In this document: piece by piece, positions 31,885 to 42,457 of the stretch
Layout of the letters: each line of letters begins with the position of its first letter
Position numbering within the stretch: the stretch's first letter is position 1
Origin: Candidatus Peribacteria bacterium
Lineage (GTDB): Bacteria; Patescibacteriota; Gracilibacteria; Absconditabacterales; Absconditicoccaceae
DNA: 54,290 nucleotides
Assembly: GCA_031276875.1 (NCBI GenBank)
Contig: JAISMG010000007.1
Coordinates: forward strand, 1-54,290
Reading direction: 5' to 3'
Translations under genes and position numbers: made by a program
The notes under the pieces: model-generated
Database searches by the model: none
What the model was told of the DNA's origin: nothing
What the model saw: only the letters and a program-made list of their open reading frames with translations

Positions 31885-32012
31885 TGATACGGTGGTGCTG
31901 ATGTGGAGTATGGAAACACCTGTTCCCATTCCGAATACAGAAGTTAAGCATACTCCAGTCGATGATACTGGTCGGCTTCCGGCTGGGAAAGTAGATTAGT
32001 GCTACCATATCA
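31885..32012 (+). rRNA. rrf: 5S ribosomal RNA
   Basis: Recognised by the block GTTCCCATTCCGAATACAG, then GTTAAGC and TGGGAAAGTAG. The ends TGATACGGTGGTGCT and AGTGCTACCATATCA pair, defining helix I with a short extension; mature ends are probably a few bases inside. It lies directly before 16S rather than after 23S. Confidence 0.92.
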
Positions 32013-32050
32013 GAAAGTCGAATCATCTCTGAAGAAGTGGTCTTTACCAG

Positions 32051-32081
32051 TACGAATAAGAATTAGAGCAAAGATGTATAC
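32051..32081 (+). other. 5' arm of 16S pre-rRNA processing stem
   Basis: TACGAATAAGAATTAGAGCA and following bases pair, with small mismatches, with 33650-33681, enclosing 16S. This resembles an RNase III processing stem. Confidence 0.75.
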
Positions 32082-32083
32082 TT

Positions 32084-33582
<1,499 letters not shown>

Positions 33583-37680: not shown

Positions 37681-40600
37681 ATGACAAATAAAGACCTTAA
37701 TCTCATAGCACAAAATCCTCAAAGCACTGTAGTGGCCCAATTTATTCCATCAACAAAAAGAGCAGAACACTACCAAAGTGAAGATGCACTAGAAAAAGAG
37801 TTTATTCAGCAGCTCCAATCTCAAGCATACGAATATCTTCACATTCATAGTGAGTCTGACTTGATTACCAATCTCAGAAAACAGCTAGAAAAGCTGAATA
37901 AGTATACCTTTAGTGATGATGAGTGGAAACATTTTTTTGAAAAAGAAATAGCAAATCCCAATCAAAGTATTGAAGAAAAAACTACAACTATTCAAGAAGA
38001 TTATATCAAAATCCTCAAATGCGATAATGGGACAGAAAAAAATATCTATTTATTAGACAAGACTAATATTCACAATAATGCTCTCCAGGTCATCAACCAA
38101 TATGCTACTGAAGACGGACAGAGAGCAAATCGTTATGATGTGACAATTCTGGTGAATGGGTTTCCGCTAGTCCATATTGAACTCAAGAGGAGAGGAGTAG
38201 CGGTACAAGAAGCCTTTAATCAGATCAATCGTTATCAGAGAGAAAGCTTTTGGGCAGCAAGCTGACTTTTTGAGTATGTTCAGCTTTTTGTTGTTTCTAA
38301 TGGAACGCATACCAAGTACTATAGTAATACTACACGTTTTCAGCATATCAAAGAGTCAAATGAAGGACAGGCAAAGAAAAGAAAAAAATCAAGTAATAGC
38401 TTTGAATTTACCAGTTGGTGGGCAGATGATACCAATAGACCTATTATGGATTTGATGGATTTTGCCAAGACCTTTTTTGCAAAGCACACACTTCTCAATA
38501 TTTTGACGAGATATTGTGTATTCACTGCAGATAAATCTTTACTCGTCATGAGGCCATATCAGATCGTGGCCACCGAAAAAATTATCAACAGAATAGAAAC
38601 CAGTACCAATTATAAAAAATATGGGACAATAGAAGCAGGAGGATATGTCTGGCATACTACAGGATCAGGAAAGACACTTACAAGTTTCAAGACTGCACAA
38701 CTTGCAACCAAATTACCTTATATTAGGAAAGTCTTATTTGTGGTTGATAGAAAAGATCTCGACTATCAAACAATGAAAGAGTATGATAAATTCGAGAAAT
38801 GAGCAGCAAATAGTAATACAAGTACTGCAAAACTCCAAAAACAGCTCGAAGATCCCAAAGCAACTATCATTATTACAACTATTCAAAAGCTTGATAAATT
38901 TATCAAGAAAAATAAAGGGCATACCATTTTTGAAGGACAGATTGTATTGATCTTTGATGAATGTCATCGTTCACAGTTTGGAGATATGCACAAATCTATC
39001 ACGAAGGCATTCAAAAAGTATCATCTCTTCGGATTTACAGGTACTCCTATTTTTGCGGTGAATGCTTCATCAGCTGGACATCCAGATATAAGAACTACCG
39101 AACAAGCATTTGGAGAAAAACTCCATACTTATACGATTGTAGATGCAATCGCAGATCAAAATGTGCTACCTTTCAAGGTGGATTATATTTCTACCATCAA
39201 AGAAGCAGAAGATATTGAAGATACTCAAGTAAAAAATATTGATAGAGAAAAAGCACTTGCTGAACCCCAGAGAATTAGCAATATTGTACAATATATTCGT
39301 GAACATTTCAATCAAAAAACCAAAAGAAATAGTTTTTATTCTATTAAAGAGAGAAGACTTGCTGGTTTTAATTCTATATTTGCAGTCTCTTCGATCAATA
39401 TGGCAAAACTCTATTATACAGAATTTCAAAGGCAATTAATAGGACTTCCTTCTGATCAGCAACTCAAAGTTGCTACGATATTTAGCTATGTAGCAAATGA
39501 AGAAGAGCCAGATGGAACCATAGATGAAAATCCTGAAGATACAAATCAACTGGATGAGCATTCTAGAGATTTCCTAGAAAAAGCTATTCAAGACTACAAT
39601 AAGATGTTTGATACTTCTTTTGATACCTCTTCCGAAAAATTTCAAAATTATTACAAAGACGTGAGTCAAAGAGTAAAAGATAGGGAAATAGATATTTTGA
39701 TTGTAGTGAATATGTTTTTGACAGGATTTGATGCGACTACACTAAATACGCTCTGGGTAGATAAAAACCTCCAATCTCATGGATTAATCCAAGCATTCTC
39801 CAGAACGAATCGTATTCTTAATACTATCAAAACTTTTGGAAATATTATCTGTTTTCGTAATCTGGAAAAGAGAACTAACGCTGCGATATCACTTTTTGGA
39901 GACAAAGAAGCAAGTGGTATCGTTTTGCTCAAAACCTTTGGTGAATACTATAATGGCTACCAAGATGGAGATAAAGAAATCAGAGGATATAAAAGTCTGG
40001 TAGAAGAACTAATAGAGAACTATCCCCTTGTAGAAAGAATCGAATCAGAAAAAGCTAAAAAAGATTTTATCAAACTGTATGGAGGAATCCTCAGAGTTCA
40101 CAATATCTTAGCGACGTTTGATGAATTTGAGGGGCAAGAGATTCTATCACAGAGAGAGATTCAAGATTATCATAGTATGTATATTGACTTATATAATGAG
40201 TTTAGAAAATGAAAAGATGAGGAAAAAGAAAATATTAATGATGATCTTGTATTTGAAATGGAACTCATCAAACAAATAGAGATAAATATTGATTATATCC
40301 TTGATCTTATCAAAAAATACCATCTTGATCATACAAAAAACAAAGAAATACTCATTGATATTAATAAAGCTATTGAGTCAAGTGTTGAACTTCGTAATAA
40401 AAAAGATCTGATCGAACAATTTATTAATTCTCTTGATATCTCATCCTCAGTAGATACTGATTGGATTGAATTTGTAGAAAAGAAGAGAAAAGAAGAATTA
40501 GATACTATTATCAAAGAAGAAAATCTCAATCCTGATGAAACATATAAATTTGTAGAAAATGCTTTTAGAGATGGTTCAGTTCCAACTACCGGTACAGGAA

Positions 40601-40725
40601 TAACAAAGATTTTACCTCCAGTTTCTCGTTTTAGTCCCGATAGACAAAGGACTCAAAAAAGAGAAACAGTACTTGAAAAGCTAATAAGATTCTTTGCAAG
40701 ATTTTTTGATATTTCTAGTAGATAA
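37681..40725 (+). CDS. hsdR: Type I restriction endonuclease subunit HsdR
   Basis: The 1014-residue motor and nuclease subunit translocates DNA with ATP and cuts unmodified DNA away from the site. The N-terminal PD-(D/E)xK nuclease has [21 protein letters not shown] near 150-170; the helicase core has HTTGSGKT (Walker A, about 325), FDECH (motif II, about 424) and FTGTP (motif III), with [15 protein letters not shown] and QAFSRTNR as later motifs. The C-terminal region is helical for HsdM contact. Three TGA codons are read as Gly. The sequence is of the EcoR124I type. It ends just before a GC-rich relic. Confidence 0.95.
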
Positions 40726-40744
40726 TACTTTAAATATAAGTAGT

Positions 40745-40985
40745 TGATTGCCTTACTTTAGTAATTCAAGCAAAGCTACTCGATTCAGGAACGATTTCCT
40801 TCTTCCGCTTGCAGGGAACCGCTATTACGATTCGTTCGCGTCGGTTAACTTTCAGGGCAGTTTCGGCGACTACTGGTCATCCAGTCCGGATTCTTCCTAC
40901 GCTCGTCGCCTGTACTTGGATTCGCGGCGTGAGCGTGTTCAACGACTACCATCGTGTAGGTGCCTTCTCGCTGCGTTGCTTCTAG
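40745..40985 (+). pseudogene. DGR variable-region-like (C-type-lectin-fold tail) relic, frameshifted
   Basis: One frame encodes RFRNDFLLPLAGNRYYDSFA, then GSFGDYWSSSPDSSYARRLY; near 40925 it shifts, and the next frame gives VSVFNDYHRVGAFSLRCF and TAG. This is the familiar C-terminal pattern (LPxAGxR, YWSSS, GFSxRC) of FGE/lectin-fold proteins and of diversity-generating retroelement targets. Codons at the usual variable positions are mixed NNC/NNT (tac, gat, ttc, agc, cgc), as after adenine mutagenesis. GC content is above 50 percent, unlike its neighbours. There is no body of a target gene in front and no reverse transcriptase in this window, so it is a relic or isolated cassette. Confidence 0.6.
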
Positions 40986-41020
40986 AACTCTTAGCTTGAC
41001 CCTTTGGCTGTGGAACCGAT

Positions 41021-41047
41021 AAAAGCTGATTTCGATCAGCTTTTTTC
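41021..41047. terminator. Bidirectional terminator built from an inverted AAAGCTGA pair
   Basis: AAAAGCTGAT, loop TTCG, ATCAGCTTTT: a perfect 10-bp stem with a stable TTCG loop and T-runs on both strands. It separates the plus-strand hsd region from the minus-strand ftsQ-like gene. The two arms are copies of the window's over-represented octamer. Confidence 0.9.
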
Positions 41048-41049
41048 TT

Positions 41050-41934
41050 TTACTTTTTTCTTACAATTATCTTTGTAGCATCCAATGAACCCAAATCAAT
41101 AGTAGCCAGTCTTTGTATCGAAGGATAATACTGTTGCAACATATGATACTTGGTCAATTGCTCCTGTAAACTTTCTTCATCATTCAAATTGATATAAACG
41201 GTCTGCTCTGTTTGCGTAAAAATGGCAAACCTTTTGGAACCAGCTAAATAAACAAAACGGTTCATAGTTGGAATTTCCTTTTGGATTACGTTAATCAAAT
41301 CCATCATCTCTTGTACGCTCACATCAAAGAAAAATCCACTTAAAGAGGTAGTTCCTGTCAAATATCTAGGAGTATCCACCATAAAACTTTCAATCCCCAA
41401 CTGCATTCCACTTTGAATTTCAAAGAAAAGATATTCACCTCGTACTCCAAACATTTTTTCTCCCAATTTCACCTTAAAGAGAGGCTCACTAAATTTGAGG
41501 TCAATGCCTAAGGTGTTCCCTGTTTCCAACTGAAAATCCATAGCTTGTACAAAAGGAAACTCTTTCTGAATTTTTGCCAAAATAGGTCACTTTTGGAAGG
41601 TCGTAAGCATATAATAGTTTTTCCCTTTAATCTGAGCAGTAATGCTATTAAATAGGTCAATATCTTCATAGGTAGCTATCGTCTGCTCTGACCATTTCAC
41701 ATTTTTCATCGTAAAAGTTGCTTTAAAAAATACTCCTTTAATCAGAAAGAAAAATCAGCAAATCACCAAAATACTGCTAATCAGGGTTCGAGAAAGGATA
41801 GTCTTTACCTTTTGATTCAAAGATAATGAAAAAGTAGGCAACGAAATTCCTGCTTGATTGATAACTCTTTTTAGAGAGTACTTCTTTCTTTTTCTGGCAA
41901 ATGGTCTTGTGTTGACTAATCCTCTCCTAGACAT
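41050..41934 (-). CDS. FtsQ/DivIB-like division protein
   Basis: A 294-residue bitopic protein: a basic cytoplasmic tail (RPFARKRKKYSLKRVINQAG), one transmembrane span (LISSILVICGFFFLIKGVFF) and an extracytoplasmic part starting with a POTRA-like segment (KGKNYYMLTTFQKGPILAKI) and a beta domain ending TIDLGSLDATKIIVRKK, as in FtsQ. Two TGA codons are read as Gly. FtsQ links FtsL/FtsB to FtsWI at the septum. Identification is by topology and the final motif, since the family diverges quickly. It overlaps the yuiD-like gene by 8 bases. Confidence 0.75.
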
Positions 41935-42457
41935 ATAAAATATAATACAAAACAAAAGTTAAGCTGACTCCAAACAAGATACCTCCAAGCACTTCGGATG
42001 GAGTATGTCCTAGTCTTTCTTTCAGCTTTGTTTTTCTTCTTCGTCCTGTTACCTCGTGATTGTTTTCTCCTTGTGTTGCCAAATTGTGCTGTAAATCTTT
42101 TCTCAAGTCGTTGAGGTATTCAGCGTGTTTCCCAGTTTGAAATCTCAGGTTCATCGCGTCATATGCAAACAGTAGAGAAAAAGTAATAGCAATCGCAAAG
42201 GTACTACTATAAATACCATCGTGTAATAAGGTAATCATAGTTGCACTACTTGCTATCCCACTATGAAACGAAGGAAATCCTCCAGAAGAAAATACTTCTT
42301 CCAGGCTCAAATGTTTTTGGACGACAGAGTCGATAATTACTTTGGTCATCTGGATAATTGCTCCTACAATTGCAACAATAAAAATAGGTGGCATTTGTTG
42401 CACAATGTCCTGAAAAAAGAGCGAAAAGTGATGAAGGATATATTCCCACATTATCAT
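41927..42457 (-). CDS. YuiD-like (DUF212) integral membrane protein
   Basis: A 176-residue DUF212 protein related to acid phosphatase/vanadium haloperoxidases. It has about four membrane spans and the family motifs SSGGFPSFHSGIASSATM, LLFAYDAMNLRFQTGKHAEY and the C-terminal KERLGHTPSEVLGGILFGVS. The HS in SFHS and the GHTPSE block match the phosphatase-type active-site segments. Function is unproven; possibly a lipid phosphatase. No TGA is used. ATG 42451 is an alternative start. Confidence 0.88.
   Translation of the reverse strand: MIMWEYILHHFSLFFQDIVQQMPPIFIVAIVGAIIQMTKVIIDSVVQKHLSLEEVFSSGGFPSFHSGIASSATMITLLHDGIYSSTFAIAITFSLLFAYDAMNLRFQTGKHAEYLNDLRKDLQHNLATQGENNHEVTGRRRKTKLKERLGHTPSEVLGGILFGVSLTFVLYYILYV

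Follow-up and report, generated by a model that had tools for sequence, protein, structure and literature searches.

A probable dead copy of a FISUMP-domain DGR target gene behind hsdR in a Candidatus Peribacteria bacterium

Diversity-generating retroelements (DGRs) with remote, duplicated or degenerate loci have been described in Thiohalocapsa PB-PSB1 (PMC10907252) and Trichodesmium (PMC8867640), and a large DGR survey states that remote targets are missed by it (PMC8144416). The locus described here resembles the former two in that reverse transcriptase (RT), Avd and template repeat (TR) lie together, lectin-like targets bearing the variable region (VR) are found elsewhere in the genome, and targets are duplicated with their redundant parts decayed. 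It is unlike them in being a lone target 3′ end behind an unrelated gene, and in belonging to a VR lineage that has no assembled template. No comparable lone VR tail was encountered in a small search of open-licence literature. The relic belongs to a known kind, of which it is a decayed example, and there is nothing unusual in it if a duplicated target gene has simply decayed. Following it up revealed FISUMP-type targets dispersed through a genome in which TGA encodes glycine, and most of their VRs do not fit the single assembled template.

The window, that is, the whole stretch of 54,290 nucleotides that was analysed, is contig C15 of a 38-contig, 1.23-Mb assembly with a completeness of 68%. 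Conserved genes of this genome are read through TGA as glycine, the genetic code of Absconditabacteria and Gracilibacteria. The relic sits in a gap between hsdR of a type I restriction-modification operon (37681-40725, forward strand; PADLOC REase_I, profile positions 2-972 of 976), with its stop codon at 40723-40725, and a converging gene at 41050-41955, putatively ftsQ-like from its position and sequence. HsdR is a neighbour of the relic and lies outside the DGR. On the forward strand at 41021-41046 there is a terminator-like hairpin followed by a T run (fold, z = -3.45), probably the original hsdR terminator. The GC content is 0.525 at 40800-41039, compared with about 0.33 on both sides and 0.369 for the window, which agrees with the GC-rich island that had been predicted at 40745-40985.

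The island is very probably a dead, 5′-truncated copy of a FISUMP-domain DGR target gene, derived from a diversified VR. The location given by the original prediction stands and the homology is slightly wider, covering 40728-41017 on the forward strand, as defined by DNA matches to target genes on C9, C29 and C31. Within it are the last ~89 codons of a target, the stop and the beginning of the 3′ flank, and the peptides LPLAGNRYYDSF and YWSSSPDSS and, in another frame, GAFSLRCF are present where they had been reported. The DNA identity to the C9 target is 82% over about 285 bp (40728-41011); it is 77% to C29 and 68% to C31, the latter match reaching 41017. The relic matches five other places in its own genome at 69% to about 81-82% identity (E = 4e-21 to 3e-69), sister copies other than C9 scoring 69-79%, and tblastn with the intact C9 target protein recovers it at 4e-22 as residues 268-356. 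With DNA matches at five places and this protein match, it is not a chance similarity. The C9 target is an intact protein of 356 residues with a FISUMP domain and an apparent signal peptide, and the relic corresponds to its last quarter. This target and its sisters match the domain of FISUMP/Fib_succ_major proteins (PF09603, TIGR02145) and carry the VR C-terminally; unlike full proteins of that type, the relic by itself, being the last ~89 codons only, gives no Pfam match.

The predicted isolation of the island did not survive comparison with the rest of the genome, over which its family of about a dozen FISUMP-type genes is scattered. A search with the Fib_succ_major profile (PF09603) finds twelve places, one of them weak. 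Apart from C9, the copy on C28 is full-length, that on C29 is readable with its 5′ end running off the contig, and those on C20 and C21 are cut by contig ends. The relic groups with C9, C20, C29 and C21 in one VR lineage. A further FISUMP-type gene (C27:28693-30847, L027) is frame-shifted within its YWSS VR motif, and its other frame runs on into a long surface-type protein; this frameshift reflects either decay or miscalled consensus bases where the sequence is hypervariable.

The absence of a target body and an RT, as originally stated, holds for the window; the genome has both. Contig C13 carries the only DGR in the assembly, with a TR, an Avd gene (Pfam bAvd and PHROG 'Avd protein of DGR') and a DGR-type RT whose sequence contains IGNLTSQ and YVDD, so that the RT that was to be looked for exists. 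The target gene downstream leaves the C13 contig end and resumes on C10, and the overlap of 119 identical bp assigns the C10 VR to the target beside the C13 DGR. A 1444-aa gene lies between the C13 RT and this target. The C19 and C10 VRs differ from the C13 TR preferentially at template A (P about 1e-3). The same kind of system is present in G020, a family relative of another genus, in which TR-VR mismatches fall at template A in 20/23 and 24/30 cases. With readable sister genes and one complete DGR in the genome, the relic is the fossil of a known system. A second RT, on C22, was rejected as a DGR RT: its sequence contains PQGAPSSPQ, its profile matches are to CRISPR-associated and defence RTs, and no TR was found beside it. 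This protein (L009:7208-8707) is 499 aa long and is preceded by a 415-aa protein with no PADLOC match; its profile matches include several defence and CRISPR-associated RT groups, none of them decisive.

The relic was aligned by codon with the C13 and G020 TRs, the templates being placed via their translations. Both templates were found independently of the relic, and neither was used in selecting the columns. The VR core (40802-40982, forward strand) has NNC/NNT codons where the templates have AAC/AAT, and 19 of 19 codons opposite template AAC/AAT end in C or T. Relic and C9 differ at 27/51 A columns of the G020 template and at 16/136 other columns (P = 1.6e-8), and at 22/43 A columns and 21/144 others of the C13 TR (P = 2.6e-6); these P values are approximate, since VR copies share history and the templates are aligned through translations. 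The assorted NNC/NNT codons that had been attributed to adenine-directed mutagenesis are therefore seen, and the differences are concentrated at A positions of an independent template. As the relic keeps this pattern, it very probably descends from a diversified VR. Together with the RT, Avd and TR of the genome, the result upholds the central proposal of a DGR VR relic; the form of that proposal in which the VR has decayed also agrees with the VR-type 3′ end, the homology to sister genes and the decay described below.

A spare template had been proposed as well; the segment would then be a template repeat, surplus or displaced, that does not code and serves the RT as donor. Its TR-like length and the lack of a gene body or RT alongside would suit a template, but the details do not, and this explanation is hardly credible. 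The relic ends in TAGAAC, resembling the CAGAAT of most VRs of its group and not the CAGCAC and CAAGCAT of the two templates, and retains A at just 22 of the 51 template-A columns; with a VR-type 3′ end and most template adenines gone, it is a VR and not a template. Moreover, target coding sequence precedes the repeat and a target stop with 3′ flank follows it, and no VR found here equals the relic at all non-A positions. Nor is a FISUMP-type fragment with no DGR history, its NNC/NNT codons arising from ordinary divergence of a surface protein, anything but highly improbable. The assembly does lack a matching template, and many other FISUMP genes here are likewise unmatched. Ordinary divergence, however, would favour third positions, whereas the third base is C or T in all 19 codons, and the differences cluster where independently recovered templates have A.

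An assembly artefact is very unlikely, whether a wrong join that placed part of a target after hsdR or a frameshift created by consensus calling where the sequence is hypervariable, even though contigs C10, C13, C20, C21 and C29 end within target genes and the C27 gene is also frame-shifted in its VR motif. The closest copy is only 82% identical and differs in the non-variable flank too, so the relic cannot be an assembled gene copied to the wrong place. It also lies well within the 54-kb contig, flanked on either side by unique sequence, and the missing gene body is independent of the 2-bp deletion.

The template of the relic's lineage has proved more elusive. Of the predicted template repeat, a related TR was recovered on C13, and a full match to the relic at non-A positions was not. 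At non-A columns the C13 TR and the relic share only 80/144 bases, and this TR was rejected as the relic's template on this ground. No TR fitting the C9/C20/C29/C21 lineage was found in the 68%-complete assembly, a level of completeness at which absence is no proof. This TR may be encoded in the third of the genome that is missing; otherwise it has been lost and the lineage is no longer diversified. Given that no fitting template was found, we infer past diversification of the lineage from its pattern. A search of 49 family genomes with the inferred template gave the G020 TR as the sole match outside the genome itself, and the relic DNA has no match beyond its own genome among 59 genomes (relatives and its own). 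No match was obtained when the C9 target was scanned against a genome contig collection or the C13 RT against a viral contig collection.

Two bases are missing between 40924 and 40925 (forward strand), which accounts for the predicted frameshift and is evident in the alignment with seven other copies. The VR 3′ end reads TTC TAG AAC TCT TAG (40980-40994, forward strand, from comparison of the 3′ ends of templates and VRs), with a premature TAG stop at 40983-40985 and the original stop at 40992-40994. The codon after TGCTTC has thus become TAG, as had been proposed, although its precursor was most likely CAG, as in C9, C20, C29 and C21, and not AAG. The relic has neither a start nor a gene body. 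Judged by its sequence it is dead, not a functional DGR target gene with an open reading frame, body and start, because the gene body is missing, two bases are deleted and CAG has changed to a stop. By a relative-rate count at non-A columns, it has not changed clearly faster than C21 or C29; the decay may be recent, or the count may be too weak.

The relic would have originated from an intact target gene whose protein was probably exported and whose C-terminal, probably lectin-like domain carried the VR. The DGR RT and Avd would copy the template-repeat RNA, misreading adenines, and the cDNA would replace the VR, turning AAC/AAT codons into NNC/NNT. The 5′ body may then have been lost, either by deletion or because copying into the space separating hsdR from its terminator stopped short, and the 2-bp deletion and the stop would have followed, after which the target protein would no longer be made.

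How the relic came to sit behind hsdR can be approached through its junctions. Homology begins 2-3 bp past the hsdR stop. The sequence GATAA overlaps the hsdR stop codon (40721-40725) and recurs directly past the end of homology (41018-41022), both on the forward strand, as a possible target-site duplication; if the relic is removed in thought, the hsdR stop abuts the terminator hairpin. The repeats and the adjacency of the hairpin suggest an insertion with a 5-bp duplication, bearing in mind that a 5-mer match between the flanks is expected by chance in 7% of random trials. HsdR ends in FFDISSR (40714-40725), and most close relatives extend a few residues beyond FFDIS. The relic junction may have cut the last HsdR codons, and the early end would equally fit a recombination junction. 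Among the HsdR homologs and ftsQ neighbourhoods examined, none showed the hsdR locus with an empty site or occupied by a complete target gene. The ftsQ neighbourhoods of five genus relatives contain neither hsdR nor the relic and therefore offer no clean empty site, and HsdR homologs compared by eye share no common 3′ flank. Had the hsd operon split a target, the 5′ part of that gene should remain upstream of hsdM; none was found there within the window.

It is a doubtful proposition that the relic captures the spread of a variable lectin-like domain in progress, a 5′-truncated target 3′ end having inserted on the same strand behind the unrelated hsdR and duplicated 5 bp there. If it were true, it would bear on how new DGR targets arise, and such events could occasionally equip another protein with a tail open to DGR diversification. 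In the present case the tail has decayed, and it is neither in frame with hsdR nor ahead of its stop.

Some other features of the window are worth recording. At 31891-33582 a 5S rRNA gene lies immediately 5′ of the 16S rRNA gene, with the hsd operon coming after 16S; no 23S rRNA gene was found within the window. A regular repeat protein with units of ~20 residues (ALTSVGGNLDASNATSFSAP...) is encoded at 181-1065, and the opposite strand is also open over most of its length. Short dispersed repeats at 1277-1324 and 2175-2206 match stretches near the C9 and C28 target genes, and also on C22, with up to 32/32 bases identical.
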